This document shows positions 455 through 30,400 of a DNA stretch of 33,139 nucleotides, one piece after another; position 1 is the stretch's first letter, and each line of letters opens with the position of its first letter. This stretch comes from Prevotella sp. (GTDB lineage Bacteria > Bacteroidota > Bacteroidia > Bacteroidales > Bacteroidaceae). A program made the translations under genes and the position numbers. The DNA lies in the NCBI GenBank assembly GCA_017470345.1, contig JAFUEP010000038.1, positions 1 through 33,139 of the forward strand, read 5' to 3'. The notes below the pieces were generated by a model. The model was not told the origin of the DNA and made no database searches. It saw nothing but the letters and a program-made list of their open reading frames with translations.

Positions 455-560
455 AAAAAGTGAAAAATGAAAAATGAAAGATGAAAGATATGATTAGCTT
501 TGACACTAGTCATTAAGCGGGAAGTCTATTCATATCTTTCACTTTTCATCTTTCATCTCT
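453..560 (-). terminator. Probable operon terminator built from inverted 7-bp arrays
   Basis: The arm at 463-493 pairs with 530-560 over about 31 positions, most of them matched; the inner 11 bp (GAAAGATATGA with TCATATCTTTC) are perfect. Both arms are 7-bp-period arrays (AAAAATG/AAAGATG on one side, the complement on the other). Read on the minus strand, the stem starts just after the stop codon of the last operon gene and is followed by CAC and eight T residues (460-453). This fits a Rho-independent terminator. Confidence 0.6.
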
Positions 561-1949
561 TTAGTGTCTGATGCGGAAGGTATAGGGGAAGCGCTCGGGC
601 TCGCCAGCAGGGTCGGGCTGATGCTCGGTGGGCATGCGGAGCTGGCGGTGACGGGTGGGAGCACCCATGACGACGAGGAAGAGCCGGGAGAGGGGCTCCT
701 TCGACTTGAGGCGCGCATCCTGCGGCTGGCCATAGACGGAGCGGCCGTCGGGTGTGATGCCGACGAGGGCCCAGCGGAGGTTCTGGCCTTTCACCTGAAC
801 ACTCAGGCGGCGGTCGGCGGGCAGGGGGATGATGTTGAAGCCGTAGGCCTCGGGGACGTTCTGCGGGCGGAGCCATCCGCCACGGAGGGTGTCGAGGGGC
901 GTCTGCCAGGTGCAGGCGTAGGGTCGCGTCTCCTGGTGGGCATGACGGAAATCGAGGTTGACGAGGTGCTGATAGCCCTGCAGCATCTCGTCGCAGAACT
1001 GGCTCTGGGTGAGGCCGTGCATGCGCTGGTAGGTCATGACGGGGTCTTCGCCGCGTCGCCCCTGACGGAAGAGCTCGGCGATGACGCCACGGCCGTGGAG
1101 GTCGGCCCACCACTGGAGGACGTAGGGCGAGTGATAGATATTCTCAAGATGGAGGAAGGCCTTGTGGGTGAGCTGTCGGAAGGCCTCGAAGTGATAGTTC
1201 TCGTCGCGCAGCCACCAGGGGTTGACCTGCCAGAGCATCCACTGCGAGGCCATCTCGAAGAAGCCGGTGCCGCCCCATGCCTCGCCCTGTCCGTCAGCAA
1301 CGATCTGCGACTGGAACGAGTGGCCCAACTCGTGGGCCATGCAGTTCATCGTGCGGTCCTGGATGCGGTTGGGTGCCACCCAGAGGGCGCCGATGGTGTC
1401 GTCGTAGGTGCCACCGTAGGCTGTGCCGTCGAGGGAGTACATCACCATGACCATCATCTTGTAGCGGTCGGCTTTACTTGGTTGTGTAGAGTGGAGAGTA
1501 GTATCAAGTGTAGAGTGTAGAGTGTAGAGTGTAGAGTTTGCTGCCGCCGTCCCTTTTGTGGAAGAAGGAGTGGCGGTAGCAAACTCTACATTCTCCACTC
1601 TCCACTCTACATTCTTGTCATTCTCCACTCTACACTCTCCATTCTTAATGAATTCGAGGGAGTCGCGGAAGAAGTCGTAGAAGCGCTGCACGCGGTCGGT
1701 GAGCACAGAGAGGTTGAAGGCCATGGGGTGGCCGTCGAGCTGTGGCGGACTCTGCAGGTCGTTGCCGAATCCCCGCTCCCACATGAAGATGAGGTCGCGG
1801 GTCTCGACGCTGCGGCGGAAGGACCACTGCGAGGTGTCGCTCTCGAGGTCCATGCCCCGCAGGTCCTCAGGGATGTATATCTGCTTCTGCGCTGCCGCCT
1901 GCAAGCCACAGCCAATGGTCAGTGCCAGTAAAAAAAATAGTCGTTTCAT
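561..1949 (-). CDS. Secreted HExxH metallopeptidase-like protein (DUF6055-like)
   Basis: The 462-residue protein has a signal peptide (about 1-20, ending LQAAAQ). Zinc-site motif HELGH lies at 206-210, and a glutamate in GFFEMASQW about 22 residues later could be the third ligand, as in gluzincin-like enzymes. A later stretch (RPYACTW, then GWLRPQ and IIPL) resembles the corresponding part of the protein at 18602-20917, so the two are probably distant homologues. I think both belong to the DUF6055 type, but this is recall rather than a search. Residues about 101-156 are low-complexity, encoded by inverted 7-bp arrays, and look like an insertion ahead of the catalytic part. It is the last gene of the nine-gene operon, 78 bp after a SusD gene. 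Its substrate is unknown; a secreted peptidase acting on a host or dietary glycoprotein is an inference. Confidence 0.72.
   Translation of the reverse strand: MKRLFFLLALTIGCGLQAAAQKQIYIPEDLRGMDLESDTSQWSFRRSVETRDLIFMWERGFGNDLQSPPQLDGHPMAFNLSVLTDRVQRFYDFFRDSLEFIKNGECRVENDKNVEWRVENVEFATATPSSTKGTAAANSTLYTLHSTLDTTLHSTQPSKADRYKMMVMVMYSLDGTAYGGTYDDTIGALWVAPNRIQDRTMNCMAHELGHSFQSQIVADGQGEAWGGTGFFEMASQWMLWQVNPWWLRDENYHFEAFRQLTHKAFLHLENIYHSPYVLQWWADLHGRGVIAELFRQGRRGEDPVMTYQRMHGLTQSQFCDEMLQGYQHLVNLDFRHAHQETRPYACTWQTPLDTLRGGWLRPQNVPEAYGFNIIPLPADRRLSVQVKGQNLRWALVGITPDGRSVYGQPQDARLKSKEPLSRLFLVVMGAPTRHRQLRMPTEHQPDPAGEPERFPYTFRIRH
1484..1648. repeat. Inverted 7-bp arrays inside a coding gene
   Basis: The left arm 1508-1548 (GTAGAGT units running into TTTGCTGCCGCC) and the right arm 1572-1612 are inverted repeats, identical at 36 of 41 positions, with a 23-nt loop. 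Three of the five differences would still pair as G-U in RNA. Further ACTCTAC/ATTCTCC units run on to about 1648. The whole block is in frame within the metallopeptidase-like gene. Confidence 0.8.
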
Positions 1950-1966
1950 TATCTTAACTCTCAGTT

Positions 1967-2045
1967 CTTGCGTCCCTTCGGTAGCAAGCGACCAAAGGTC
2001 GAGCGCTCAGTTCTCAGTTCTCAACTCTCAGTTCTCAACTCTCAA
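1967..2045. repeat. Double-hairpin element copy 2 with 7-bp array
   Basis: CTTGC (1967-1971) pairs with GCAAG (1984-1988). The next hairpin is CGACC-AAA-GGTCG (1989-2001), then AGCGCTC (2002-2008), then about five 7-bp units of the AGTTCTC/AACTCTC type to about 2045. A short piece of the same array lies before the hairpin (1955-1968). The array overlaps the end of the SusD gene, supplying its last codons (LRVEN) and its TGA stop at 2030-2028. Confidence 0.7.
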
Positions 2046-3764
2046 GTACCAGTTCTTCGTGTCGCTGAGCTTATGCAGGAGCTCAGGGTCGAGAGAGCCC
2101 TTGCGGCTGGCCACACGACGGGCCAGATAGGACGCGTCGGCGCGACGGAGGGCCACACGCATGAGGTCGTAAAAGCGATAGCCCTCGAAGGCGAGCTCGA
2201 GCGCCTCCTCGTCGACGATGAGGTCCTCGACCTGCTCTATCTGGCTGGTCAGGTCGCCATCGGCCTCGGGGAAGAGGTAGGCGGGGTTCTGAGCCGAGAA
2301 GCCGCTGCCGCGCGAGTGGATGCCCATGGTGTTCTCCGTGGCCTGTCCGGCGCTGGTCTCGAGGATGTACTGCGTGTTGGGGAAGTTGAACGTGCGGAGC
2401 CATGCCTCGTCGGCAGGATAGTAGGGCAGCACCTCGGTCTCCATGACGCTGTTGTTGACGCCCTGCTTCAGGATCTGGAAGGCGAAGCGGGGGAATCCGG
2501 CGCGGTTGAGGGCCTCGGCCAAGCGCAGATAGACGGCGGCGCGGCGGAGGATATGGACGTTGCGCGTCTGATACTTAGAGAAGACGGCGTAGTGATCGAT
2601 GCGCTTTCCGTCCTGGCGGATGAGCAGGTCAGAGCCGGTGGCCTCGGCATAAGCGGCTTGCAGCCGCAGGTCGCCCGTCAGCTCCGCCTTGAGTCCTTCG
2701 GGGGCGAGGATGTATTCGCCGCCGCTGGTGAACTGGCAATACTTCTGGGCAGCGGAGAGGCTGCGGATGGCCTGCGAGGGCTGGAGGCTGGACTGATACT
2801 CATTGTTCTCGGTCGTGTTGAACAGGTCGCGCAGCTGGCTGTAGTTGCCTTCCGAGGGGATGCTGTCGCCGGGAATCATGGTGATGAGCTCGCCGTTCTG
2901 CATGTTGACCTCGCTTTGGAACATGACGCTCCACGAGTCTTGGGTCGACATCCAGCGCGAGTCGTTGTTCATGAAGCGGACGGCGTTGGTCGTGAGCGGA
3001 TAGGCCGAGTTGGTGCCGCCGCGCGTGGCGATGTAGCGGTAGTAGCTCTCGGCTGCCTGGCGATACTGTCCCGACCAGAGGTAGAGGTCGCCCAGGAGGA
3101 CATAGACGGGATAGTAGAACAGCTTGGAGTCGGTGTTGCGGATGGAGGCATAGCCGGGCGTCTCGACGTTGGCGTAGGGCGTGAGGTCGGCGATGAAGTA
3201 GCGGCACACCTCGCTGAGGTCGGCCATGGGGAAGTCGCGCTCGGAGTCGGCCTGGCTGAGGACGGGCTCGGTGATGAAGGGCACGCGGCCGTAGTTGAGC
3301 ACCAGCTGCAGATAGGTCCATGCGCGGAAGGCCTTGACGGCGGCATACTCCTTGCGGAAGATGAGCTCGTGGCGGTTATCGCGCAGCGCAGTGTCGGCAC
3401 GGGCGATGAAGAAGTTGCAGTTGTTGATGACGGCGTAGTAGTCGCGCGGCCGGTTGTACTGGTTGTCGGCCGTGACGCTGAAGTTAGCCATCTGGCGCAG
3501 GTCGGCCGACGCGTGGTCGGTCAGGTCGACGAGGTCGGCGCGCACCTCGCCGAGCAGGATGGTGCGGTCGGCCAGCACCTGCATCTTGTTCATGATGCCG
3601 GCCATGGCCCATAGCGTGTCGGCATCGCTGTCGAGGGCGTGGTCCTCGGCGTAGATATACTGGTCGGAGTCCTCATAGAGGAAGTCGCTGCAGGCGGTCA
3701 GCATCGCCCCCATGACGCAGGAGGCGAGCCCGGCAAAAAGATATTGATATGCTTTGGTAATCAT
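2028..3764 (-). CDS. SusD/RagB-family outer-membrane lipoprotein (pair 2)
   Basis: A 578-residue lipoprotein that binds the ligand above a SusC channel. I place the start at the ATG at 3764 (MITKAYQYLF), because the longer frame begins with TTG inside a 7-bp repeat. A signal peptide ends in a lipobox with Cys25 (MLTACSD). The N-terminal half has the helical TPR-like pattern of SusD (FRAWTYLQLVLNYGRVP), and the C-terminal half has the family signature ELAFEGYRFYDLMR. It follows its SusC partner by 36 bp. The last residues and the stop lie in a 7-bp array, so the C-terminus has probably been altered by repeat growth. The ligand cannot be read from sequence. Confidence 0.92.
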   Translation of the reverse strand: MITKAYQYLFAGLASCVMGAMLTACSDFLYEDSDQYIYAEDHALDSDADTLWAMAGIMNKMQVLADRTILLGEVRADLVDLTDHASADLRQMANFSVTADNQYNRPRDYYAVINNCNFFIARADTALRDNRHELIFRKEYAAVKAFRAWTYLQLVLNYGRVPFITEPVLSQADSERDFPMADLSEVCRYFIADLTPYANVETPGYASIRNTDSKLFYYPVYVLLGDLYLWSGQYRQAAESYYRYIATRGGTNSAYPLTTNAVRFMNNDSRWMSTQDSWSVMFQSEVNMQNGELITMIPGDSIPSEGNYSQLRDLFNTTENNEYQSSLQPSQAIRSLSAAQKYCQFTSGGEYILAPEGLKAELTGDLRLQAAYAEATGSDLLIRQDGKRIDHYAVFSKYQTRNVHILRRAAVYLRLAEALNRAGFPRFAFQILKQGVNNSVMETEVLPYYPADEAWLRTFNFPNTQYILETSAGQATENTMGIHSRGSGFSAQNPAYLFPEADGDLTSQIEQVEDLIVDEEALELAFEGYRFYDLMRVALRRADASYLARRVASRKGSLDPELLHKLSDTKNWYLRVEN

Positions 3765-3765
3765 A

Positions 3766-3800
3766 ATTCTCAATTCTCAGTTCTCAATTCTCAATTTAGA
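3766..3800. repeat. 7-bp tandem array (ATTCTCA)
   Basis: Four units (ATTCTCA, ATTCTCA, GTTCTCA, ATTCTCA) at 3766-3793 and a degenerate fifth fill almost the whole gap between the SusC stop (3801) and the SusD start (3764). As the leader of the SusD message it could affect translation. Confidence 0.8.
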
Positions 3801-6800
3801 CTACAGGTTGATCTTCACGCCGGCCACGAGCGAGCGGCTCTGACCGAGACGGCCCAGGTCGATGCCCTGGCCGATGACGCTGCCAGTCATGGCGAACTCG
3901 GGATCGCTGCCCAGATAGCGCGAGAAGGTCAGCAGGTTGTTGGCCTGCACCCAGAACTGGAAGCCCTGCAGGAAGGTGGTGTGGAGAGGCAGCGTATAGG
4001 AGAGGGTGACGGTCTTGAGCCTCAGGTAGGAGCCGTCCTCGATCCACCGGTCGCTGAAGCGGGCGTTGCCCATGGGGTCCTGGAAGGTGGCGCGTGGCAC
4101 GTCGGTCAACTGTCCCTCGGTCTGCCAGCGGCGTGTGAGCGTCGTGGTCTGGTTCATGAATCGGCTGCCTGCCTCGAGCTGCGAGCGCAGATAGTTGTAG
4201 ACGTCGTTGCCCAGCGAGTAGTTCAGGTTGACGTCGAGTCGGAAGCGCTTGTAGGCCATCGTGGTGAAGATGTTGCCATAGATGTCGGGGTTGGGGTTGC
4301 CGATCTGTACGCGGTCGGCGGCAGTAATCTGGTGATCGCCGTCGAGGTCGGCAAAGTGGATGTCGCCGGCCGAGAAGCTGAGGTGGTCGATGCCGTTGGC
4401 CGCGAGGAGATAGAGCCCGGCGTCGGCGGCCTCCTCGGACGTGGCGAAGACGCCGAGCGAGCGGTAGCCATAGAACATGTTGGCGGGCTGGCCCACCTCG
4501 GTGCGGATGGTGGCGCCGTAGAGGGTGTTCTCGATGGCCTGCTGACCGCCGGAGAGCTTGGTGACGCGGTTGACGTAGTGGCCCACGCTGGCGCCCAGCT
4601 CCCACTGGAAGTCCTTCAGGGCGAGCACCTTGGCCGTGGCGCTGACGTCGAAGCCCTCGTTGCGCATGGCACCGCCGTTGGCCCAGTTGCGCTCCAGTCC
4701 GGTGACGTAGCGGAGCGACTGATACATGAGCAGGTTGTCGGTGGTGCTGCGGAAGTAGTTGAAGCGCACGTTGAGCCGGTTTTGGACGAAATTGCCTTCG
4801 AAGCCGGCACTGAGGCGCCGCGTCGTCTCCCACTTCAGGCGGGTGTTGCCGATGTTGGCGAACGAGAGGCCCGAGACGTCCTCGAGGAAGTTGTTGGAGC
4901 TGAAGTAGCTGCGGGCGGCGTTGTAGTCGAGGTCGTCGTTGCCGCTGACGTCATAACCGGCATTCAGCCGCAGGTAGTCGATGCCGCGGACGTCGGCAAA
5001 CCATGGCTCATTGGTCACGACCCATGCGGCCTGGACGCCGCCGAAGATGCCCCAGGGCACCTCGAAGAGCTTCACGGCGCCCGAAGCATCGGGCCCGAAG
5101 CGCGAGGAGGTCTCGGCGGTCAGGTTGGCCTGCAGGTAGTAGCGCTGCAGATAGTCGTAGCTGGCCTGGGCGTACCAGGCGATGTTCTTCCACTTGTCGC
5201 TGTTGCCCGAGGTCTGGGCGTGGTCGAGGCTGGAGCTGATGGCCGGCATCTTGTCGCTGCTGGTGTTGTAGCCCAGCTGCGAGCTGAGGGTGTAGCTCTC
5301 CCAGTTGAAGCGGGCGCCGCCGAAGACGCGGACGGCGTGGCCGGCGTAGCGGTTCTGCCAGTCGAGGCGCGTGTCGCTCATGACGGAGTTCTGCTTGCCG
5401 GCCATGGAGCGCACCTCGTTCTCGCAGTAGGCATTGACGCTGGAGACATAGTAGGCGGGGACGCCGTTCAGGGGGATGTAGAACTTCTCGTTGGTGTTGA
5501 CCAGGTTGTAGCTGAAGTGCTCAGAGAGCGTGAGGTGAGGATTGAACCGATACTTCGGGATGACGGTGAGGTTGATCATCGAGTTCTCAAAGCGGTTCTT
5601 GTTCTCGGCGTCGCCATACTCATTGACGGCCAGGGGGTTGGCCAGCTTGTAGTTGTAGTTGGTGTAGTCGGCCAGGGCCTCGTCGAGATAGCTCTCGTCA
5701 CTGACGTCGATGTAGTTGTCGGAGATGCGGCCGCCGGCAAAGGTGTAGGGGCTGAGCATAGGGCTCTTGGCGTAGGCCAGGAAGGCGGCAGAGGTGGGTG
5801 TGCCCTCGGTATAGTCAGCCGGGGCTCCGTCGTTGCGCAGGTTGCGCTTCTGGTTGGCAAAGGAGGCGTCGAACCGCATGAGGAAGCGCTGCGTCAGCCG
5901 GATGTCGGAGTTGAAGCGGATGTTGAGCCGGTTCATGCTGTTCTGGCGCAGCGTGCTCTGGTTGGTGACGTAGCCGAGCGACAGGTTGTAGTCGGCCACG
6001 TCGTCGCCGCCCTCCACGTTGATGTTGTAGTTCTGGGTGACGGCCGTGCGGTAGACGTGGTCCTTCCAGTCGGTGTCGTTGTGATACTGAGGATAATAAT
6101 AGTAGGCGGGATCCTCGTTGAGGAACTTGAAGTCCTTGATGGTGGTGCGGGTGGTCTGCAGCAGGTCGGAGGCATAGCTCTTGTATTGCGTGGCATCCAT
6201 GACGTCGAGGAATTTGGGCTCGAGGGTGATGCCGGCCGAGAGGCTGGCGGTGATGCGGGTGGCCATGCTGTGGTTGCGGCGGGTGTTGATGAGGATGACG
6301 CCGTTGGCACCGCGGGCGCCGTAGAGGGCGGTGCCGTTGCGGAGGACGTCGACGCTCTCGATGTCGGCCGGGCTGATGTTGCTCAGGATGTCGTTGTAGA
6401 AGCCATCGTGGAGCGTCGAGCGGCCATACTGCTGGTCGAAGATGACGCCGTCGACGACGATGAGGGGCTGGGCGTTGGCATAGAGCGAGCCCAGTCCGTT
6501 CATGAACATCACACTGCCCACGCCGGGCGTGCCGTTGCGACTGACGGTGTGGACGCTGGCGCCGAGACGCTTCTGGATCTCCTCCTCGATGGTCACGGCA
6601 TTGGAGAAGCGAAAGTCGGAGGCCGACTCGCTGGCCGTCACATTGGTCGTCGCGTCGTAGTCGGGGGTGAAGGCGGCAGGAAAGAGCACGATGTCGGGCT
6701 GCTGCTCATGGGCCGACAGTCCGGTCCGGGTCAGGTTGAACTCAGGAGCGGAGACCTGGAGCGACGTGGCGAAGAGGGGCACGCGCAGCTCGTAGCTGCC

Positions 6801-7046
6801 GTCGTCCTCCGACAGGGTGCTGTAGCCTTCCACCTCGGCCACACGGACCATGACGCCCGAGAGGGGCGTCTTCGTCGTGGCATCGAGCACGCGGCCGCTG
6901 ACCATTCGCGTGGGATATTGCTTGCGGGGCTTCTCGGCCCGCTCGCGCTTGGGAGCTTCTGACAGTTCGCCGTCCTCATCCTGGGCTGATAGGGGAGCAG
7001 CCTGGAGCATGAGGGAGACAAGTGCGAAGATGAAATATCTGTTCAT
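3801..7046 (-). CDS. SusC/RagA-family TonB-linked outer-membrane channel (pair 2)
   Basis: A 1081-residue TonB-dependent transporter. The signal peptide ends near residue 21 (APLSAQ). A short charged stretch (about 22-45) comes before the carboxypeptidase-regulatory-like domain (about 48-125, GRVLDATTKTPLSGVMV). The plug (about 150-255) carries the SusC hallmark VLRNGTALYGARGANGV, and the rest is a 22-strand-type barrel. Length is normal for the family. It lies 33 bp after a FAS1 lipoprotein gene and 36 bp before its SusD. It differs clearly from the SusC at 12640-15987, so the two pairs are not a recent duplication and may import different ligands. Confidence 0.95.
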   Translation of the reverse strand: MNRYFIFALVSLMLQAAPLSAQDEDGELSEAPKRERAEKPRKQYPTRMVSGRVLDATTKTPLSGVMVRVAEVEGYSTLSEDDGSYELRVPLFATSLQVSAPEFNLTRTGLSAHEQQPDIVLFPAAFTPDYDATTNVTASESASDFRFSNAVTIEEEIQKRLGASVHTVSRNGTPGVGSVMFMNGLGSLYANAQPLIVVDGVIFDQQYGRSTLHDGFYNDILSNISPADIESVDVLRNGTALYGARGANGVILINTRRNHSMATRITASLSAGITLEPKFLDVMDATQYKSYASDLLQTTRTTIKDFKFLNEDPAYYYYPQYHNDTDWKDHVYRTAVTQNYNINVEGGDDVADYNLSLGYVTNQSTLRQNSMNRLNIRFNSDIRLTQRFLMRFDASFANQKRNLRNDGAPADYTEGTPTSAAFLAYAKSPMLSPYTFAGGRISDNYIDVSDESYLDEALADYTNYNYKLANPLAVNEYGDAENKNRFENSMINLTVIPKYRFNPHLTLSEHFSYNLVNTNEKFYIPLNGVPAYYVSSVNAYCENEVRSMAGKQNSVMSDTRLDWQNRYAGHAVRVFGGARFNWESYTLSSQLGYNTSSDKMPAISSSLDHAQTSGNSDKWKNIAWYAQASYDYLQRYYLQANLTAETSSRFGPDASGAVKLFEVPWGIFGGVQAAWVVTNEPWFADVRGIDYLRLNAGYDVSGNDDLDYNAARSYFSSNNFLEDVSGLSFANIGNTRLKWETTRRLSAGFEGNFVQNRLNVRFNYFRSTTDNLLMYQSLRYVTGLERNWANGGAMRNEGFDVSATAKVLALKDFQWELGASVGHYVNRVTKLSGGQQAIENTLYGATIRTEVGQPANMFYGYRSLGVFATSEEAADAGLYLLAANGIDHLSFSAGDIHFADLDGDHQITAADRVQIGNPNPDIYGNIFTTMAYKRFRLDVNLNYSLGNDVYNYLRSQLEAGSRFMNQTTTLTRRWQTEGQLTDVPRATFQDPMGNARFSDRWIEDGSYLRLKTVTLSYTLPLHTTFLQGFQFWVQANNLLTFSRYLGSDPEFAMTGSVIGQGIDLGRLGQSRSLVAGVKINL

Positions 7047-7079
7047 AATTGCTTGCAGTGGTTATCTTGAGATGACATG

Positions 7080-8732
7080 TTATTCGGCTTCTCTGTGGGG
7101 CCTGACGATGAGGCAGTCGAGACGCAGGGTGCTGGAGTGGGTCGACGTCTGGTTGGTCCGCACGTTAGAGCGGATGGCCACCTTGACGGCTGCGTCGGCC
7201 AGACCGTAGGAGCAGGTCGGGAAGGTGTAGTTGCTGACCAGCTGGACGGTGTCGACGACGTCAGGACGGGTCGTGAGGTCCTTGTTGTAGATGCGGCGGG
7301 CCTCGCGGCCGTTCTGGTCGCTCCAGTAGAGGGTGGTGCGGACGATGTTGGGCCGGGTGGTCTCGGCCACGGCGAGCGTGTCGTAGGCCGTGGCAGGGAC
7401 GAAGACGGCATAGATGTCATAGCCGACGTTCGACAGGATGTTGGGAATCTTGTACTGCACGGTCACCTGAGCCGTGGCAGGGTCGGGCTGCACCTCGACA
7501 AACGTGTTTCCGGAGACCTTGCCATAGAACGGATTGGTCGAGACGACCTCGCGCACCACGAGGGGCTCGACGGCATTGATGATGGTGTCCTGCGACTGGA
7601 TGGCCTCGGCCTCGACCTTCACCGTCTGCAGGAAGGTCTCGTACTTCGAGATGCGGAAGTCACGGGCCTTGAGGACATGGCCGTTGCTGCAGACGATGTC
7701 GTCGGTGCCATAGAACACGCCGCCGGCGTCGAAGGGCCGGAAATAAGTGTAATAGGGATAGTCGTTGCCCATCAGGGCGCGCACCAGCGACGAGGGGGCA
7801 CTGGTCGACACGGCGGAGTCGCGGAAGGCAACGTCGGGATTGGTGGTTCGGCTGAAGATGGTGCCGCCAATGATGGCCTGACGGGTGCCGACGCGGAACA
7901 TGGAGTCGCGGCGGGCCACGTTGTTGGGATAGTTGAAGTAGGGCTCATACTCCGCCAGCAGCCGGCTCCACTCGTCGTTGGTGGGGCAGACCATCCAGTA
8001 GGTGCTGTCCTCAGAGTCAATGAGGCCAAAGGATTCGAGCAGGGGATTGATGAGCACCGACACGGAGTCGAGGTAGACGGTCTGGCCGTCGACAATCTCG
8101 CCGGGGACGCTCTTCGTCTCGTCGAACTCATAGACGCTGTAGGCATTGAGGAACTGATAGACGCTGTCGAGCTCGCTATCGTGACCAAGATACTCAAAGA
8201 CATTAGGGAAATAGTCGAGTTTGCGGTCGATGGTGAACAGCAGGCCGTTGTCGTAGAGGGCATTCGAGGAGAGCAGCTGCCGATTGCCCAGATGCGTGTG
8301 GGTGAGCACCTCATACTTGTTGTTCATCATTGTGATGGAGTCGAGTGTGAGCGACGACACGGGATGGCGATAGAGCGCGATGTGGTTCTGCAGGAACTGT
8401 CGCACGACGGTGTTGTCGTTCGGACGGGTGCCGGCTGACTGCTGACGCTTGAACTCGGCTATCAGACTGTCGGCCTCGGCAGCCGAGAAGGTGGCGTCGG
8501 TGGGTGCAAAGACCGAATAGGTCTGGCTGCCATCAAGCACGACGTCGTAGCCACAAGCCTTGACGACGCTGGCAAAATGGGTCAGGTCGCTCTGTGAGGA
8601 GATTGCCTGCCAGAGCGTGCCGTCGTTGACGGCGCTGGCGTCGTAGTGCTCGTTCCATTCGTCGGAGCATCCGGCGAGGGCCATGCCTGCCAGAAGGGCT
8701 GCGCTGATATGTTTAATATATTTGTAAATCAT
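7080..8732 (-). CDS. FAS1 (fasciclin) domain lipoprotein
   Basis: A 550-residue protein with a lipoprotein signal (LAGMALAGCSD, Cys22). It has FAS1-type repeats: the first (about 35-200) contains YSVFAPTDATF and ends in LLFTIDRKL, and a second, more divergent one (about 205-375) contains YWMVCPTNDEW and VCSNGHVLKA. The last 150 residues look like a beta-rich domain of unknown type, ending LRLDCLIVRPH. FAS1 domains usually mediate adhesion or protein-protein contact. Here the gene lies between another FAS1 lipoprotein and SusC, where surface ligand-binding proteins sit in Sus-type operons. A role as an accessory binding protein is inferred. Confidence 0.85.
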   Translation of the reverse strand: MIYKYIKHISAALLAGMALAGCSDEWNEHYDASAVNDGTLWQAISSQSDLTHFASVVKACGYDVVLDGSQTYSVFAPTDATFSAAEADSLIAEFKRQQSAGTRPNDNTVVRQFLQNHIALYRHPVSSLTLDSITMMNNKYEVLTHTHLGNRQLLSSNALYDNGLLFTIDRKLDYFPNVFEYLGHDSELDSVYQFLNAYSVYEFDETKSVPGEIVDGQTVYLDSVSVLINPLLESFGLIDSEDSTYWMVCPTNDEWSRLLAEYEPYFNYPNNVARRDSMFRVGTRQAIIGGTIFSRTTNPDVAFRDSAVSTSAPSSLVRALMGNDYPYYTYFRPFDAGGVFYGTDDIVCSNGHVLKARDFRISKYETFLQTVKVEAEAIQSQDTIINAVEPLVVREVVSTNPFYGKVSGNTFVEVQPDPATAQVTVQYKIPNILSNVGYDIYAVFVPATAYDTLAVAETTRPNIVRTTLYWSDQNGREARRIYNKDLTTRPDVVDTVQLVSNYTFPTCSYGLADAAVKVAIRSNVRTNQTSTHSSTLRLDCLIVRPHREAE

Positions 8733-8738
8733 ATAAAA

Positions 8739-8780
8739 ACTATAAACTATGAACTATGAACTATGAACTATGGACTGTTT
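8739..8780. repeat. 7-bp tandem array (ACTATGA)
   Basis: Six units, ACTATAA, ACTATGA three times, ACTATGG and ACTGTTT, fill the gap between two FAS1 genes and run into the stop codon of the upstream one (8781-8779). The same 7-mer recurs in frame at 23540-23567. Confidence 0.85.
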
Positions 8781-10821
8781 ACAGCATGCTTTCCATCTTG
8801 CCCTCGTCGGTCACGCCGTAGACGCTCTTGGGCACCAGTTCCAGATAGTCGAGCATGAACTCATTGTCGTTGCCCTGCTTGGTGGAGACGCAACGGATGC
8901 GCAGGTAGTGGTCCTCGTCGGGATTGATGTGGGTGGTGCAGATGACCATGCGGATGGTGTGAGGCTGGGTGGCAAAGACGACCTGGGTCGTGCCGCCCTG
9001 CGGGGCATAGTGATAGCCGCCGGCCGCACCGCGATAGTAGCCCTTGTTCTTCAAGACCTTCTGGTCGGTGGCCAGGTCGGTGAGCGACATGCTGTTGTAG
9101 TCGGCCTTCCAGTCGGCGCCGAGGATGGAGGCGTCGCTGAGCTGCTTGGTCATGTCGAGCGGGATGCCCTGCGGCTTGTCGTCGAAGTAGAACTGGGCGA
9201 CGCCGCGGGTGCCCTCGGCAGCGAAGCCTAAGCGGATCTGCCATTCGCCCTCATAGGGCACGGGGGGCAGCTTGAACGTGGCGTCGAAGTCGCCGAAGAG
9301 GTTCATCTCGTCGCCCTCGTAGCTGTCGTACCAGTCGTGGGGCCGGCGATAGACGAAGTGGCAGCCCTCGTTGAGGGTGACGCCCTTCAGATAGCCGTTG
9401 GGGAAGTAGTAGTTGCGACCGTACTTGCCCGTCTCGTCGTACTCGGGATCCTGCTGCTTCATGCCGCCGTTGCGCTCGTTGAGGCGGATGTCGTTGGTCA
9501 TCAGCTCAGGGAAGATGGTGGAGAAGTCCATGCGGATGCGGTCGTTGTCGACGATGTCGCGGGTGGTGAGGTCGAAGGCCAGGATGTCGTCGACGTAGAA
9601 GTAGCGCCCGTTCAGTGCATCCTGCTTATAGTCGGTCTCGACGTTGGCGAAGATGCGGGTGCCCACGACGTTGAAGTCGTCGTCGTAGCGGCGGTTGATG
9701 TAGCGCTGGCCCAAGATGCTGGGGCCGGCCCACTTGCGGACGGTCAGCCGCTCGAACTTCATCATCGTGTGGGGCAGCATCGTCTCGTACCAGTCGACGG
9801 GATTCATCACCGTGGTCAGGATGCCCACGTCCTTATAGGGCGTCAGGTAGTTCCAGCCCTTGACGTCGCGCGTCAGCACATGATAGGCCAGGAAGCGGAA
9901 GAGCGGATTCTTCGGATGCTTGATGTGTGCAAAGTCGTGATACTCGGCATCCTTGTCCTCGGGGTAGACGGCATCATATATTTTGCAGGCCTTGTCGTAG
10001 AGCCCGCGGACGGTGGTGATGCCATATTTCTCGCGCAGCAGCGAGTCGGTCGGCACGAAGAGGGTGTAGCCGGTGCGTTTCTCGTCGGGTGGCGAGGCCG
10101 TCTCCCGGTTCACGTGCGAGATGTACTTCCAGTGCTGCTCATAGGCAGTGGGGTCCCAGGTGGGGTCCTTATACTGATAGAACGAGTCGGCCAGCCCCGT
10201 CTGCACGTAGGCATCGACGTAGAGCGAGATGTTCGGGTTCTGCTTCATCACGTCGAGAATCATGCGGTTGCTGCTCTCGAGCACCTCGGTGATGGGCTGC
10301 ATGATGCCGTTCTCGACGGAGTCGTCCTGCAGGGCGAAGATGATGTGTGAGGTGCCGTTGAGGAAGACCACGGCGTTCTGCTCCTCGTCAACGCCATGGC
10401 TGACCTCGATGTAGCGGCGGTTCATGTTGGCCGTCGACAGCACGCCGTCGTCCATGTCGGCCGTGGTGTACATGTTCTTCACCAGATGTGTGCGGGCCAG
10501 GGTGTCGCAGTCGGCGACGCTCAGCTCGCTGACTGACGACAGGCCGCGCTTGGCCAGGTAGTTACGTACGGCCTCGTTGGTCGGCGGGAAACAGGTGTAG
10601 GCTCCGTAGGCCGCAAGCAGTTCCATCATGCCGGCCCGCTCGAGGATGGCCGTGAACTCGCTGAACTGCTCATGCCCATAGAGGTATTCGCTCATCATCT
10701 GCCCCTTGAACGTATAGAAGTTCGAGGAGTCGGGCTCGTCGGAGCAGGACGAAAGGGCCATCGCGAAGCCATAGCACACGGAGAGTGCCAGGAGGAAATA
10801 TTTCATCGGCTTGGTATTCAT
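8779..10821 (-). CDS. FAS1 (fasciclin) domain lipoprotein
   Basis: A 680-residue lipoprotein with signal ending MALSSCSDEP (Cys about 26); the start could also be Met6. The first FAS1 domain (about 38-240) contains YTCFPPTNEAV and HIIFALQDD. The second (about 245-430) contains YTLFVPTDSLL, FLAYHVLTRD and GRYFYVDDIL. Residues about 490-680 form a separate beta-rich domain (GEWQIRLGFAAEG, FMLDYLELVP), similar in type to the tail of the FAS1 protein at 7080-8732. It starts 20 bp after the first SusD gene. The molecular ligand is unknown. A surface-exposed binding role is inferred from the lipoprotein signal and the locus. Confidence 0.87.
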   Translation of the reverse strand: MNTKPMKYFLLALSVCYGFAMALSSCSDEPDSSNFYTFKGQMMSEYLYGHEQFSEFTAILERAGMMELLAAYGAYTCFPPTNEAVRNYLAKRGLSSVSELSVADCDTLARTHLVKNMYTTADMDDGVLSTANMNRRYIEVSHGVDEEQNAVVFLNGTSHIIFALQDDSVENGIMQPITEVLESSNRMILDVMKQNPNISLYVDAYVQTGLADSFYQYKDPTWDPTAYEQHWKYISHVNRETASPPDEKRTGYTLFVPTDSLLREKYGITTVRGLYDKACKIYDAVYPEDKDAEYHDFAHIKHPKNPLFRFLAYHVLTRDVKGWNYLTPYKDVGILTTVMNPVDWYETMLPHTMMKFERLTVRKWAGPSILGQRYINRRYDDDFNVVGTRIFANVETDYKQDALNGRYFYVDDILAFDLTTRDIVDNDRIRMDFSTIFPELMTNDIRLNERNGGMKQQDPEYDETGKYGRNYYFPNGYLKGVTLNEGCHFVYRRPHDWYDSYEGDEMNLFGDFDATFKLPPVPYEGEWQIRLGFAAEGTRGVAQFYFDDKPQGIPLDMTKQLSDASILGADWKADYNSMSLTDLATDQKVLKNKGYYRGAAGGYHYAPQGGTTQVVFATQPHTIRMVICTTHINPDEDHYLRIRCVSTKQGNDNEFMLDYLELVPKSVYGVTDEGKMESML

Positions 10822-20917: not shown

Positions 20918-20974
20918 AACTGTGGTTAGTTGTAGATATTCTTGTCGTAGGCTGATTTCCTGTCGAAACCCATG

Positions 20975-21005
20975 CAAAGATACATCTTTTTTTGAGTATC
21001 TGCAA
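20975..21005 (-). promoter_or_regulatory. Promoter of the nine-gene operon
   Basis: On the minus strand, CTTG with TTG at 21005-21003 is followed after 20 nt by TATCTTTG (20982-20975). This matches the Bacteroidetes promoter consensus and gives a leader of about 50 nt before the ATG at 20917. Confidence 0.7.
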
Positions 21006-21220: not shown

Positions 21221-23653
21221 ATGATGAAAACTCTACTTAGAAATCTGCTGACCGCAGTGGTATGCCTGCTCGTCGGAACGACAGCTCAGGCACAACAGTT
21301 CGATGGCAGCGCTGAGCAGTATCCGACGACGGACTACGCATCATCGCCCATCGCATTCAACCTCACCGAGGTGGCCACGGCCCTCGGCACCGACGCCGCC
21401 ACGCTGGGCGCAGCCATCGGCGAGTACATCGCAGCCGAGACGCCCGCCACGAGTCTCTTCTTCGTGCAGCAGGCCGACGGCACTGAGAACTCTGACCCCA
21501 CGGCCGACGCCAACGGCTTCTGGATGGACGCTCAGGGCAACAACGTGGGCTATGGTGAGACAAGTGTCTTCTATGCCAGCCCCGACGTCGACATCGAGGC
21601 CGACGAGTTCGCTTTCTACGTGGGCCAGATGCCCGAAGTGATGCAGGCCGGCGACGCCGCCTCGGCCAAGATCGCCCTGAAGTTCAACGACAAGCAGGTC
21701 GTCTTCGCCATCACGCTCAACGTCATCGCCAAGCCCGTCTACGACATTCCCGAGCCGGCCACGCTCATCGAGAAGGAGGTCAACGTCGTGGGCGAGAAGG
21801 AAGTTGTCGTCGAGCAGTTCCCCCGCGGCGGCTATGACAGCGACGCCGTGAAGGTGGCCCTCGACGACGTCATCGAGAAGCTCGGCCTGCCGACCGTCGG
21901 CATCCTGGTCGACGCCATGGATCAGGTGCTCTACGCCCCCGAATACAACACGGCTGACGTCGAGCAGGGCGGCGGCTTGAAGAAGGACACGCTGAGCAAC
22001 ACCTTCACGGCCGGCGCCCCCGGATTCTGGATGCGCCCCGTGCAGAACGAGCAGGGCGAGGAGACGGGCGAATGCGCATCGGCCGGATGGGGCGACGCTG
22101 ACCGTTTCTTCGCTGAGGCCTTCGGCTTCAATACCGAGACGATGGAGCTGACGTTCAACCTGGGTCAGTATCCCGGCGCCTGCAAGACGAACGACGAATG
22201 GTTCAGCTATGTCTATCTCGTCTATGGCGACAAGGCCTACCGCGTGAAGATCACGCTGAAGGTGCTCGAGGTGGAGCAGGGCACGGGCATGGACGCCTAC
22301 ACGAAGGTGGGCCAGGCTGCCGTCACCGTCAAGCAGGAGCCGCGCACGTCGTGGGGCTCGGTGCAGGTCTATCCTGACCTCGAGGCCATCGCCCAGGCAC
22401 TGGGTTGCGAGGTGTCGGCCATCGGCATGAACGCCCTCGACAACAACGACAACTTCGGACAGACGACAGCCAACAACGGCGGATTCTGGTTCGACGAGGG
22501 CGGCCGCGTCGTGGCCTACGGCAACGGTGCCTTCTACATCGAGCCCGCCGAAGCCAACAACTATTCGACGCTCAACGTCGGACAGGTGCCCAGCACCTAC
22601 ACCTACGGCGACCAGTTCACGGCCAGCCTCTACTTCATGAACGGCGAGAACTACTACCAGTACGACGTCACCCTCCTCATCGACGATCCTGATCTTGTGG
22701 AACACGGATTCGAGAGCGTCACCACGCGCACCTTCGCCCTGCAGTCGCTGCTCTACAACGGCTATGAGGCCATGGACCTCTGCAGCATCGCCATGGATGA
22801 GGTGGAGCAGCTCATCGGCACCGCATCGCCCGTGCTCTACGGTCTGACGCAGGATACCCTCGTGGCCAAGCGCGGCACCTACTCGAAGGACTGGAGCTGC
22901 GACCCGAAACCCGGTTTCTGGCTCAACGCCGACGGCCGCGTCTCTGACTGGTACGATGCTAACGCCCGCGTGGGCATCAGCTTCCTCAGCGACGGCACGT
23001 TCCGCTTCTTCCAGTACCCCAACCGCAACAGCGTCGGCGAGGTGTTCAGCACACAGCTCTTCCTCGTCAACGAGGCCACTGAGAAGATGGTGACCATCAA
23101 CATCAACCTGCGCTTCGTCGACTCGGTCGTAGAGAAGGAGATCGTCGGCAACGAGAACCTCGGCATCCCCGTCTCGACGGATGAGATCGACGTCGTGCTC
23201 GACCTCAGCAAGCCTGCCGAGGCTCTGGGCGTGACCATCGACGACCTGCTCAGCCCCGACAGCTACTACCTGCGTGGACTCACCGCCGACGGCGTCTACG
23301 GCGAGGGCCAGAACGCTGAGAACGGCCTCAGCTTCGACATGGACGGCGGCTACAACGGCTACGGCGACATGTACTTCACCATCGCCCGCAACGGCGACGA
23401 CGTCGTGCTGACCATGTGCAGCAACAACGAGGTGGCCGACGACTACACGGCCAACGGACAGTTCTGCTTCGAGGTCGGCGACAAGCAGTACGTCTACTAC
23501 GTCACGTTCATGGCTGAGCCCGTCTACAACGGCATCCAGACTATGAACTATGAACTCAGAACTATGAACTGCTACGACCTGCAGGGCCGCCGCATCGCCC
23601 AGCCCACCCGCGGCCTCTACATCATGAACGGCCGGAAGTTCATCGTCAAGTAA
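21221..23653 (+). CDS. Secreted five-repeat protein (DUF4859-like) with T9SS-like tail
   Basis: An 810-residue protein with a signal peptide (about 1-25, ending TAQAQQ). The rest is five divergent repeats of about 130-160 residues, recognisable by a GFW-plus-acidic core: NGFWMDAQGN (about 107), GFWMRPVQNE (about 268), GGFWFDEGGR (about 423), GFWLNADGRV (about 564) and GLSFDMDGGY (about 704). This pattern fits what I recall of DUF4859. The C-terminus (YDLQGRRIAQ, GLYIMNGRKF) resembles the short sorting tail of Prevotella secreted proteins. Just before it, TMNYELRTMN is encoded by an in-frame ACTATGA array. It is divergent from the nine-gene operon and shares its control region, so co-regulation is plausible. 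Function is unknown. Confidence 0.8.
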   Translation: MMKTLLRNLLTAVVCLLVGTTAQAQQFDGSAEQYPTTDYASSPIAFNLTEVATALGTDAATLGAAIGEYIAAETPATSLFFVQQADGTENSDPTADANGFWMDAQGNNVGYGETSVFYASPDVDIEADEFAFYVGQMPEVMQAGDAASAKIALKFNDKQVVFAITLNVIAKPVYDIPEPATLIEKEVNVVGEKEVVVEQFPRGGYDSDAVKVALDDVIEKLGLPTVGILVDAMDQVLYAPEYNTADVEQGGGLKKDTLSNTFTAGAPGFWMRPVQNEQGEETGECASAGWGDADRFFAEAFGFNTETMELTFNLGQYPGACKTNDEWFSYVYLVYGDKAYRVKITLKVLEVEQGTGMDAYTKVGQAAVTVKQEPRTSWGSVQVYPDLEAIAQALGCEVSAIGMNALDNNDNFGQTTANNGGFWFDEGGRVVAYGNGAFYIEPAEANNYSTLNVGQVPSTYTYGDQFTASLYFMNGENYYQYDVTLLIDDPDLVEHGFESVTTRTFALQSLLYNGYEAMDLCSIAMDEVEQLIGTASPVLYGLTQDTLVAKRGTYSKDWSCDPKPGFWLNADGRVSDWYDANARVGISFLSDGTFRFFQYPNRNSVGEVFSTQLFLVNEATEKMVTININLRFVDSVVEKEIVGNENLGIPVSTDEIDVVLDLSKPAEALGVTIDDLLSPDSYYLRGLTADGVYGEGQNAENGLSFDMDGGYNGYGDMYFTIARNGDDVVLTMCSNNEVADDYTANGQFCFEVGDKQYVYYVTFMAEPVYNGIQTMNYELRTMNCYDLQGRRIAQPTRGLYIMNGRKFIVK
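23540..23567 (+). repeat. In-frame 7-bp array (ACTATGA)
   Basis: The units ACTATGA, ACTATGA, ACTCAGA and ACTATGA encode TMNYELRTMN at the join between the last repeat and the sorting tail of the secreted protein. The 7-mer is the same as in the intergenic array at 8739-8780. Confidence 0.85.
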
Positions 23654-23846: not shown

Positions 23847-23849
23847 CTG

Positions 23850-24455: not shown

Positions 24456-24736
24456 TCATTTTTGGAATTTAACCAAAAGGGGGCTATCGGGAATCCCTAT
24501 CTTGAGGGGAACATTTAGACTGATTTGTAAATAAATTTCTGAATTATTCGCCTATTCATTACAACTTGTTGATTTTCTGCAAGATAGCTATGCGCCGAAA
24601 AAGAAGCGGTGCTTTTCGGGTCGAAAAGGACCGCTTCTTGAGTCGAGAAGCGGTGCTTTTTGGACGAAAAAGGACCGCTTCTCTGTGCCGAGATCTGAAT
24701 TTGTAAATAAAAAGGACACTTGAAAGATGCGTGGGG
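24456..24736. repeat. Two tandem hairpins flanked by a direct repeat
   Basis: There is no gene here. Two 37-bp hairpins lie at 24602-24638 and 24646-24682, 44 bp apart. Each has a 9-bp arm (AGAAGCGGT with ACCGCTTCT), one G-G mismatch, and an inner CTTTT/AAAAG stem. They lie between two copies of ATTTGTAAATAAA (24523-24535 and 24699-24711). The unit follows the end of the minus-strand PI-PLC gene but has no T-run after the stems, so it is not a classical terminator. Confidence 0.75.
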
Positions 24737-27090: not shown

Positions 27091-27097
27091 CTCCTGC

Positions 27098-27400
27098 TTA
27101 GTCTTTTCCGAGGATGATGTCGACGAGTTTGGTGACGTCGGTGACCAAGTTAGCACTGCCATAACAATTATAGAATGTCATCTTGCCCCATGTAACTGCT
27201 GTTTCCGGTACATTAATAGTCTTCAAATAACCACATCTACAGAATGCTTCCTTTGGAAGTGACTCTAGTCCTGTGAAGTATTGGAACTCATCGAACGAGG
27301 TGATGTTCTTATTATAGAACACAGACTGATTCTTTTCGCTGTCGATGAGTGTCGTCACCGCTGCCGCCTCGGCCTTCGAGAGCTCGCCGTCGCGGTCAAA
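27098..27400 (-). pseudogene. Remnant of a BspA-type leucine-rich protein with dockerin end
   Basis: The frame reads FDRDGELSKAEAAAV (an EF-hand-like start of BspA proteins), then TSFDEFQYFTGLESLPKEAF and YLKTINVPETAV (leucine-rich repeats), then TDVTKLVDIILGKD (half of a dockerin). There is no ATG; the frame enters from inside the end of the HTCS gene, and only a GTG at 27358 could start it. The middle and the first half of the dockerin are missing. It is most likely a fragment left by deletion or recombination. A short expressed GTG-started protein cannot be excluded. Confidence 0.6.
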
Positions 27401-30400
27401 CCTCGCTGGGACGGATGCCGAACTGCTTCTGGAAGCACTTGGTGAAGTAGGAGGGATTGTTGAAGCCCACCTTGTAGCACACCTCGTTGACCAGATAGCG
27501 GCCCTCGCTGAGCAGGGCGTAGGCCCGCTTGAGACGCACCACCTGTATCATCTCGTTGGGCGTCATGTCGGCCAGGGTCTTGATCTTGGCGAAGAGTCCG
27601 CTGCGGCTGATGGCCATCTCCTCGGCCAGGAAGTTGACGTTGAGGTCGGGGTTGGCGAAGTTGGCCTCGATGATGCGGTTCATGCGCTCGAGGAACTCGT
27701 TGTCCGTGGGGTTGCTGGCAATCTGCGTGACGGGCACGTCGGGCTTCGACGTGAAGCGCTTCAGCAGTCGCTGCCGCATGTCGAGCATGTTGCGGATGCA
27801 GCCCTCGAGGAACTCCACGGAGAAGGGCTTCTCGATGTAGACGTCGGCGCCCACCTCCATGCTCTCCACGCGCGACATGTGGTCGGTCTTGGCCGTGAGC
27901 ATGATGAAGCTGATGTGGCTCGTGGAGGGGTCCTGCCGCACGCGGCGGCACAGCTCGGCGCCGTCCATGCGCGGCATCATCCAGTCGCTGATGATCAGCT
28001 GCACGTCGGCGCCTTGGCGGCTGAGCACGTCGAGGGCCTCGATGCCGTCGGCCGCCGTCAGCACGTTGTAGGTGCTCTGGAAGTTGCCGGCCAGGAAGCT
28101 GAGCATGTCGTCGCTGTCGTCGACGATGAGCATCGTGGGGAGGGAGGAGGGTGGAGGGGTGAGGGTGGAAGGTTGAGGTTCTGTTGCGTTGTCGATGGCC
28201 TGCTCTACGGGCAGGACGACGGTGAACGTGGAGCCCTGGCCGGGCTCGGAGCTGACGCTGATGGTGCCGTGGTGCTGGTCGACGATGTTCTTGACGATGC
28301 TCAGGCCGATGCCCGTGCCGGGCTTGTTGTCCTGTGCTTGGAAGAAAGGCTCGAAGATGCGCTCTCGGTCGGCCTCGCGGATGCCCACGCCGTTGTCGGC
28401 GACGACGATGCGGAAGTGGTCGCCGTCAGGTTCGACGGAGCAGGCCAGGCGCACGTCGTCGCGCGTGTATTTGTTGGCATTGGTCAGCAGGTTGCTCACC
28501 ACCTTGGTGAGGCCCTCATGGTCGACGAAGGCCGTGAAGCGGCGGTCGGGCAGGCTGACCTCGAAGTGCTTGCCGCCCTGCTCGAAGGTCGGGGCGAAGC
28601 GATCGCTGACGGCCCGCACGAGGTCATAGATGTTGTGGGGGGCCATGTGCATGACGAGGCTCTGCTGCTCCACCTTGCGGAAGTCGAGCAGCTGGCCGAC
28701 GAGCTCGAGCAGGCGGTGGGCGTTGCGGTCGATGATGTCGAACTGGCCCGCCATGCTCTCGTCCGTCAGGCGGCCCTTCAGCTTCTCCAGCGGTCCGATG
28801 ATGAGCGAGACGGGGGTGCGGATCTCGTGGGCAATCATGGTGAAGAAGTTCAGCCGCGCCTCGCGCACCTCGCGCTCCTTGGCCTCGCTGAGCCGCTGCA
28901 GCTCGTGCTGATGGCGCCGCTCGGTGCGCTTCAGCCGTGAGCGCACGAACCACCAGAGGGCGGCCACGGCCAGCAGCAGATAGAGTGCACGGGCCCACCA
29001 CGTCCACCAGAACGGCGGCCTGACGACGATGCGCAGCGTGGCCTCGTCGGGTGTCCAGATGCCGTCGTTGTTGGTGGCCTTGACGCGGAAGGTGTAGGTG
29101 CCCGGCGGGATGTTGGTGTAGGTCGCCTTATGCTGGTTGCCCACGTAGTTCCACTCCTTGTCGAAGCCGTCCAGCCGGTAGGCATACTGGTTCTTGTCGG
29201 GCGAGCAATAGCTCAGTGCGGCAAAGCTGAGCGAGAACATCTTGCCGTCGCCGTAGGCCATCCGGAGCTCGCGCTGCTGGCCGACGCTCAGCGGCAGTCC
29301 GTCGGGTGTCTTCTCCTCGCGGTTGAGGATCTCGAGCGACGTGATGTAGACGGGCGCCATGACGCTGTTGGTCTTGATGGTGTGCGGATAGAACGTGTTG
29401 AAGCCGCTCGTCGAGCCGAAGAAGATGCGGCCGTCGGCGGTCATCAGGCCCGCGTTGGGCTGGAACTGCTCGCTGACGAGGCCGTCCTGGCGCGTGAACC
29501 GCAGGATGCCGTCGCCCGCCACGTACTTGACGATGCCGCGGTCGGTCGAGAGCCACAGGCCGTCCTGGCCCTCGACGACGCACATGACGGCCTGCGAGGG
29601 GATGTCCATGTGGACGAGGGTGAAGCTCGCGGACGCCTCGTCCCACTGCAGCAGACCGTCCTGCGTGGCCACCCAGAGGCGCCCCTCGGCGTCGACGAGC
29701 GTGCCGTTCACCTGCGTGTCGGGCAGGCCGTCGTCCTGGCCCGCCTGGTGCTGATAGTGCTGCCACTGGCCGGTGCGCGGGGTGTAGCGCCACAGTCCGC
29801 CGCCCTGCGTCGAGAGCCACAGGCGGCCCTGGCGGTCCTCGTCGATGTCGATGGTCAGGGCGCCGATCTGGCGCACCATGCGGAAGCGGTCGGCCGCGGC
29901 GTCATAGCGCAGCAGGGCATTGATCGTGGCCACCCAGACGGTGCCCTCATGGTCGCGCATGATGGCATACGAGCTGTAGTCGTTCAGCCCGCGGTCGTGG
30001 CCCGTCGGGCCGTAGTGGCGCAGCCGGCCCGTCGTCGTGTTGAGCACGTAGACGCCGTCGGTGTAGGTGCCGATCCACAGGTCGTCGCCGTCGATGCAGA
30101 GGGCGTGGACGTTGAGCCGGCTCAGCTCCTGCTGGTGGGCGAACGGCGCGAAGCGACGCTCCGCCGCCACGTAGCAGCTCAGTCCGCCGTCGTCGCTGGC
30201 CACCCAGACGCGCCCCTGTCGGTCCTCGCAGAAGCGGCCGATGACGCCCGCCCTGACGGGCTCGAAGCGGCCGGCCACGGGCGACAGATAGTTGACGCCG
30301 CCATAGAACGTGCCGATCCATAGGCCGCCCTCGCGGTCCTGGCGGAAGGCATAGGCGAAGCGCTCGGAGTGCGGCGTGCCGCCGTCGGCCGGCAGCAGCC

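Follow-up and report, generated by a model that had tools for sequence, protein, structure and literature searches.

The stretch of DNA studied here, 33,139 bp of a Prevotella sp. genome (contig JAFUEP010000038.1 of assembly GCA_017470345.1; referred to as the window), contains numerous tandem arrays with a repeat unit of 7 bp. We take such heptad arrays in general to be part of a dispersed population of small palindromes (approximately 90 to 200 bp), each built from two inverted heptad arms and a short core, and about half of the arrays checked are arms of this kind. These elements have mutually matching arms, occur in frame inside genes, are missing from orthologues in related genomes, and differ between sister genomes in loop orientation and even in the element present at a given site. 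As a whole, we regard it as probable that these palindromes are shaped by replication template switching between their arms.

The window is one contig (C37) of a source genome of 2.67 Mb in 68 contigs, rated 61.55% complete. The nearest named relative found is the uncultured Prevotellaceae metagenome-assembled genome (MAG) RUG12472, with 94% protein identity over window positions 18602-20977. It is present in our genome set as the sister genome G422, and in duplicate as G320, and is 96% identical to the window over positions 2008-9000. Since this relative is a RUG MAG, and these come from the rumen, the source organism is most likely a rumen Prevotella species.

Heptad arrays and dispersed palindromes

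Tandem Repeats Finder (TRF) detected period-7 arrays in the window at positions 456-486, 534-558, 1484-1537, 1583-1645, 2006-2056, 3765-3796, 8738-8776, 23540-23570 and 28139-28178. These agree within a few bases with the sites named in a preliminary description made from the sequence alone, except for one array said to extend from 1955 to 2045, which is real but starts at 2006; positions 1965-2005 are a separate dispersed 41-bp repeat. The arrays given there as 463-560 and 1484-1648 exist as well, but each is a palindrome in which a unique core separates two inverted arms, and the one at 28138-28182 is real but degenerate (75% matches in TRF). Our own scan (periods 2-20, threshold of at least 14 net matches) found five arrays of period 7 in the window, four at the harmonic period of 14 and none at other periods; one first-order Markov resample contained no array. 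In 400 kb sampled from the source genome, 40 arrays had a period of 7 and 30 rows stood at the harmonic 14, versus none at periods 2-6, 11 and 13, three each at 8, 9 and 12, and five at 10. This excess of 40 over 0-5 arrays at each other period between 2 and 13 is the mark of heptanucleotide simple sequence repeats (SSRs) and agrees with the earlier suggestion that the arrays are not unrelated microsatellites.

The period is less strict elsewhere. In 320 kb of the sister genome, 26 arrays of period 7 were accompanied by 13 of period 8 and six of period 9; 236 kb of genome G034 contained 12, six and three, respectively, and in 79 kb of genome G120 period 9 (ten arrays) exceeded period 7 (six), with five arrays of period 8. 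By eye, several of the arrays in these three genomes, and in part the 9- and 10-bp arrays of the source genome, form inverted pairs. The samples from all four genomes held no array of period 5 and only one of period 6. Period 7 is a habit of the source genome and not a universal step. The generating mechanism proposed in the preliminary description, a universal 7-nt slippage or addition step, is not supported in that form in view of G120 and of the 8-, 9- and 10-bp arrays, and because of the latter a strict 7-nt enzyme step was set aside. Triples of the AATTCTC type occur at 95 places in the source genome (up to three mismatches) versus 27 for a reversed control, and their arrays are patchy among relatives: 24 of 60 genomes, including the source genome, match with up to two mismatches, several genomes of the genus have no match, and some are rich in the reversed control instead. 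Relatives without the core sequence described below are poor in period-7 arrays (four in 400 kb of G003, five in 400 kb of G010).

Of 64 arrays in 433 kb of the source genome, 30 are accompanied by an inverted partner (at least 15 of 18 bases matched, within 170 bp), as compared to 2-6 of 64 when the surroundings of other arrays are used instead and 0-3 of 64 for randomly chosen places (five draws each). No inverted partner was detected for 34 arrays, including five of the seven window sites, and five of these 34 solo arrays are found no more than 20 nt away from a predicted start codon. Predicted open reading frames (ORFs) contain 38 of the 64 arrays and cover 91% of the sequence, so that arrays are rarer in genes than by chance and we claim no preference for genes.

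The best-defined family follows the plan purine heptads, TTTGCTRCCGC, loop, GCGGYAGCAAA, pyrimidine heptads. Its core, from TTTGCTRCCGC through the loop to GCGGYAGCAAA, is present in 13 copies in the source genome (reversed-pattern control: none) and in 67 of 398 genomes of the genus, the source genome included (reversed control: one genome), and was found in none of 294 other genomes of the order. In relatives, the core loci are flanked on at least one side by sequence with a 7-bp period, the heptads differing (GAAGAGT, GTAGAGT, AAAAGTG, GAAGAAT). Two core halves were found in 433 kb of the source genome, and other palindromes of this genome, including the window element at 456-558, carry other cores. 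As the conserved part of the family is internal and its terminal arms differ both in heptad and in length, the conserved terminal inverted repeats of miniature inverted-repeat transposable elements (MITEs) are missing. The exact core pattern had no match in IMG/VR, and carriage by phages was rejected on this ground.

In-frame elements in protein-coding genes

Nine of the 13 core-family copies in the source genome lie in frame in genes and four outside ORFs. Among 56 distinct elements (16 from the source genome and 40 from relatives), 30 are located in ORFs. In 29 of them the element is read in the same frame by the longest ORF, and the exception (L076) has this frame in its shorter sense ORF. 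Core length equals 2 modulo 3 in 29 of the 30, the exception being L098 with a short, doubtful ORF, and in 13 of the 26 other elements. The core ends encode F-A-A/T-A and A-A/V-A-N, and the predicted peptide of an inserted element has the form EFATA...AANSTLYTLHSTL. Owing to these core ends and the core length, an element can lie in frame in a gene and in most cases remains open on inversion: of 29 coding cores, 28 are open after being inverted versus 22.1 +/- 2.2 expected, and only 8 of 2000 loop shuffles reach 28 (L098 was dropped and L076 oriented by its sense ORF). From the look of their sequences, we take the host genes to include those for ArgC, Xaa-Pro aminopeptidase, UvrA, GMP synthase, carbamoyl-phosphate synthase and glycerol kinase. 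In four genomes (loci L092, L104, L105 and L109), a 68-bp core overlaps an apparent signal peptide (RlpA-like in L105 and L109, by eye), and this core loop may have become functional.

The elements are additions to their host genes. The window copy at 1484-1648 lengthens a DUF6055 protein by about 54 residues. For this protein, a match of any kind was found in 51 of 150 genomes searched, the source genome included. In 25 close orthologues without the insert, the first aligned part ends by about residue 106 and the second starts at about 154-159, the two parts being at most 18 bases apart, and the eight relatives whose site was read (of 25 loci tried) have only a short linker there. The nearest insert-free orthologue among the matches listed shows 76% protein identity, and neither an exact insertion point nor a target-site duplication could be placed from the boundaries. 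Queries made of the joined flanks from nine host genes were compared with 23 relatives and the source genome itself. For eight genes they align straight through the junction, in at least 15, 15, 14, 11, 11, 11, 4 and 2 relatives (by eye, some at low identity); the result for ArgC was ambiguous in genome G002. For RNase R (L075), 11 genomes among the matches listed align straight through and 10 show 63-84 bases between the aligned halves, for which reason this gene was left out as evidence of an empty site.

Arm matching and differences between close relatives

Arm sequences agree more closely within an element than between elements. Complementarity was 22.1 of 28 within versus 19.2 between elements (0 of 5000 permutations), in a test that does not remove relatedness between elements, and at one orthologous spacer in ten genomes it was 19.5 versus 18.5 of 25 (35 of 10000 permutations), a small effect.

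Fourteen array sites of the source genome were compared with the sister genome (positive length differences denote a longer sister sequence); for 13 of them flank identity was mostly 93-100%, with three lower values of 90.9, 84.0 and 78.9%. Two sites are identical, one has nearly identical arms with an inverted loop, and one palindrome is present only in the source genome. At one site the arms differ (GAAGAGT in the sister, GTAGAGT in the source genome) and the sister element is 69 bp shorter, and an in-gene replacement at 23540 is length-neutral. Three sites changed by whole heptads (+70, +42 and -14 bp, or 10, 6 and 2 heptads), showing that unit number changes fast. The five others changed by lengths that are not multiples of 7 (-8, -18, -24, +58 and +283 bp); together with the site replaced without length change and one that is differently built, they also speak against a universal 7-nt step. 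Conversely, a scan starting from the sister genome gave eight sites, seven of which have an array in the source genome. Inside genes, where growth shifts the frame unless three units or a compensating piece are added, as had been pointed out, the frame is kept at 28139 (+42), 1484-1648 (-69) and 23540 (0), and all three genes are open in the sister genome.

The sister genome contains nine exact-core elements, of which six are shared with the source genome, one occupies a site that holds a different palindrome family there (L348 vs L041), and two have no counterpart among the source-genome loci compared. In two of the six shared elements the loop is inverted, namely L341/L077 outside a predicted ORF and L345/L083 in an aminopeptidase-like gene that is open in both genomes; loop orientation is unchanged in the other four. 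The combination of homogenised arms with loop inversion between close relatives, known from hotspots of template switching, is present in these palindromes. Loops also recur at different places: those of L073 and L149 are 100% identical in different genes of two genomes, those of L145 and L148 are 89% identical in two genes of the source genome, and a single ORF, RNA methyltransferase-like by eye, carries two elements with loops that are inverted copies of 96% identity (L094). These same or similar loops in different genes, and the inverted second copy in L094, suggest that copies spread to new genes.

A common location of such elements is the spacer between acpP and fabF. FabF was searched in 46 core-bearing genomes and matched in 39, and 30 loci were cut; without one duplicate genome and one locus whose start was not found, 28 spacers remained, two of which were taken as 150 bases as the end of acpP was not found. 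All 28 have a strong predicted hairpin (z -4.4 to -16.0; here and below, z refers to mononucleotide shuffles). By eye, 15 carry the TTTGCTRCCGC core or a degenerate form, one a coreless heptad hairpin, three other heptads, one 8-bp units and eight C-rich palindromes. From genomes without the exact core, 19 of 20 fetched spacers were readable and 13 of these have a hairpin: ten plain hairpins, two heptad palindromes of other sequence and one variant core; the remaining six are short spacers of 15-36 bases without a hairpin. Based on these counts, the acpP-fabF hairpin is common, not universal, and differs in sequence.

The array sites of the window and associated features are listed in Table 1. 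Pfam also identified a window gene for a dockerin protein that matches PI-PLC weakly, besides those for the SusC/SusD-like, fasciclin, DUF6055, DUF4859 and hybrid two-component regulator proteins.

Table 1. Heptad arrays and associated features of the window.
Position	Strand	Feature	Context and basis
456-558		Palindrome, AAAAATG/AAAGATG heptad arms 456-489 and 534-558, core ATATGATTAGCTTT...AAGTCTATTCATAT	Intergenic; TRF
561-1949	-	Host gene of the following palindrome, DUF6055 protein of 462 aa	Pfam PF19527, E 5.5e-103; open through the insert
1484-1648	-	TTTGCTRCCGC-core palindrome, GTAGAGT heptad arms, core 1537-1583	In frame in DUF6055 gene
1965-2005		Dispersed 41-bp repeat directly ahead of heptad array	Many copies, 83-98% identity, in G422, G424 and G426
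2006-2056		Solo AGTTCTC/AACTCTC array	3' end of SusD-like gene; TRF
3765-3796		Solo AATTCTC array	Between SusC-like and SusD-like genes, beside likely susD start codon; TRF, ORFs
8738-8776		Solo AACTATG array	Fills spacer between two fasciclin-domain genes; TRF, ORFs, Pfam
23540-23570	+	Solo ACTATGA array	In DUF4859 coding sequence, before C-terminal segment; TRF, Pfam
28139-28178	-	Degenerate ACCCTCC array	Linker between kinase and receiver domains of hybrid two-component regulator; TRF, Pfam

Both palindromes of the window have strong predicted RNA folds (z -6.8 at 456-558; -104.7 kcal/mol and z -16.4 at 1484-1648), and no hairpin was predicted at the other five sites (z 0.2 or higher). Rfam gave no match in the window at gathering thresholds, and a known RNA family was rejected on this ground. 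In the sister genome, the element at 456-558 has similar copies elsewhere, and its own site holds only AAAAGTGAAAAGTGAAAA and no palindrome; at 1484-1648 a shorter in-frame element (23 codons less) with GAAGAGT arms is found. The array at 2006-2056 is kept there, with the additional 283 bp being mostly other repeat sequence, that at 3765-3796 is identical, and that at 8738-8776 is 8 bp shorter. At 23540 the same 61 bp, flanks included, are non-repetitive in the sister at unchanged length, with surroundings of 95-98% identity, and the array at 28139-28178 is longer by six units, equivalent to 14 codons. In the region 3741-3796, AATTATGATTAC comes after the AATTCTC array, where susD is likely to start, and a stretch resembling it, ATTATGAT...TAATCATAAT, forms the core of a palindrome in the acpP-fabF spacer of genome G203 (L333). 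Solo arrays ahead of genes may be element halves which supply a start codon. Two other repeats were observed in the window: a dispersed one at 141-243, which recurs in the sister genome at several places (88-98% identity, partly as incomplete copies), and imperfect 22-bp tandem repeats at 24619-24682 (AAGCGGTCCTTTT-like, inverted within the unit), which are largely conserved there.

Origin of the palindromes and relation to known systems

Template switching at inverted repeats is described as a cause of arm homogenisation and of spacer or loop inversion (PMC8604942, PMC8794818), and the matching arms and inverted loops observed here bear this published signature. In the process that we favour, judged from its products, the arms would fold back or pair across strands during replication and the DNA polymerase would switch template between them, thereby copying one arm onto the other, which would give concerted heptads, and flipping the loop. 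Realignment by one or more units would add or remove heptads, and the period of an element would be inherited and not set by an enzyme. New sites would probably be reached by longer-range template switching or by ectopic copying from another element, with the heptads serving as local homology. Useful or harmless hairpins, such as those in the acpP-fabF spacer, in protein loops or in linkers, would be kept while their sequence is exchanged, and solo arrays would represent halves, relics or seeds of palindromes. A more far-reaching version, which we hold to be possible and not yet probable, is that the elements act as frame-neutral invertible hairpin cassettes. Such a cassette could insert into a gene, turn around, gain heptads three at a time or be replaced by another, all without closing the reading frame of the host protein, and template switching would suffice, with no transposase needed. 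Frame-neutrality would follow from the symmetric core and from the fact that 7 shares no factor with 3.

Several observations weigh against template switching as the cause. More than half of the arrays (34 of 64) have no detected partner, five of 14 sites changed by lengths other than whole heptads, four of six shared loops kept their orientation, and the dominance of period 7 in the source genome is left unexplained. Selection for a hairpin could likewise keep arms matched, the arm permutation test does not correct for relatedness between elements, and the effect at the orthologous spacer is small. Neither a target-site duplication nor an exact insertion point could be placed. In addition, many assemblies are MAGs, in which short repeats are possibly misassembled; yet the same cores and frames are seen in dozens of genomes.

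Part of these observations would suit plain replication slippage, in which the arrays would be simple repeats of heptanucleotides that grow and shrink because a unit of 7 nt suits the polymerase, the pairing of arms being incidental. The sharp period of the source genome, the changes by 10, 6 and 2 heptads and the arrays without partner all fit, and the idea that heptanucleotide dominance stems from 7 nt interacting with the DNA polymerase is already published (Mrazek 2007, as described in PMC4679880). The conserved core that joins the arms at 13 loci already weakens this explanation, and slippage accounts neither for the inverted partners of 30 arrays (2-6 in the control) nor for the 8-, 9- and 10-bp arrays, the inverted loops, the different family at one shared site and the site that changed at constant length; we consider it quite unlikely. 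Still less likely, in our judgement, is that the palindromes are RNA hairpins kept for processing or stability of mRNA, with arms matched through selection and not through copying. Strong predicted hairpins from several unrelated families in all 28 acpP-fabF spacers of core-bearing genomes, and in 13 of 19 spacers from other genomes, speak for such a role. On the other hand, six of the latter are only 15-36 bases long and lack a hairpin, in-gene elements are missing from the listed orthologues (RNase R aside), and selection on the stem does not predict loop inversion.

A MITE- or REP-like system, in which an enzyme acting in trans, e.g. a Y1 (RAYT) transposase, recognises and moves the palindrome, also appears unlikely. 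A Y1_Tnp match is present in 14 of 17 core-rich versus 7 of 19 core-free genomes, and same or similar cores lie in different genes, both of which speak for such a system. The Y1 proteins, however, look by eye like different subfamilies, a Y1 match is lacking in three core-rich genomes, among them the sister genome (as G320), and a conserved interior with variable ends is the reverse of a MITE. Proximity to the enzyme, as in REP/RAYT systems, was not found either: a core-half motif lies within 300 bases in only one of 16 Y1 regions (G399), and the Y1 copy of the source genome is located within a methyltransferase-like ORF between its own repeats, with no core half within 5 kb. This copy (L197:6450-7350, contig C35) is a Y1-type transposase-like stretch in frame in an ORF resembling a DNA methyltransferase; the repeats on either side of it encode DVSHVATEDVASHVASG / DVRHVAS and are perhaps palindromic repeats of its own.

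Porphyromonas gingivalis likewise belongs to the Bacteroidales. Its BrickBuilt MITE, as presented in PMC4596501, also has tandem repeats inside a small inverted-repeat element, but differs by a single tandem block (23-bp minisatellite unit) between short inverted ends and an always intergenic location. By their description, the closest counterparts in coding DNA are the Rickettsia palindromic elements (RPE) of about 105-146 bp, reported in Wolbachia too (Ogata et al., as described in PMC2229807), which like the core family are found between genes and in frame inside conserved protein genes and have long predicted stem-loops. In contrast to the RPE described there, the Prevotella elements have stems of tandem heptads varying from copy to copy, a conserved core, loops whose orientation differs between sisters, and a host from the Bacteroidota. 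Heptanucleotide SSRs and TAACTGA repeats (Mrazek 2007, MacGregor 2015, according to PMC4679880) share the period of 7, the patchy distribution in related species, the position near start codons and, in part, Bacteroidetes hosts; the MacGregor repeats in that account are direct, of one heptamer and mainly intergenic, whereas the Prevotella heptads vary, often lie in coding sequence and many form inverted arms around cores. The template-switch reports agree with our data in arm homogenisation and in loop or spacer inversion, also in coding DNA, and describe inverted spacers in yeast genes with 2-5 substitutions and rRNA loops of typically 4 and up to 7-8 nt (PMC8604942, PMC8794818); the inverted loops in Prevotella, by contrast, measure 20 and 25 nt and belong to a dispersed multi-copy family. 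The coding palindromes in mitochondria of Nematomorpha are long inverted repeats within translated genes too, with arms which, following PMC6649704, encode conserved parts of the protein, unlike the added inserts of Prevotella.

Each of the three ingredients, namely coding palindromes, heptanucleotide arrays and template switching, has been described before. The literature search, which covered the field in part, found no description of these elements in Prevotella, and as far as it reached it did not come upon the union of the three in one dispersed, invertible, in-frame Prevotella family. Template switching as the common cause would link heptanucleotide arrays, coding palindromes and template-switch mutation, and it would allow relics, in the form of solo arrays or element halves, to be recognised in gene predictions. 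Since genomes of about 96% identity already differ in loop orientation and in the element at a site, the origin and upkeep of long hairpins become testable. If the elements do act as cassettes, template switching would be enough to spread and diversify protein inserts genome-wide without a transposase. The findings suggest a route by which a bacterium may extend ordinary enzymes by short peptides and still keep them intact.

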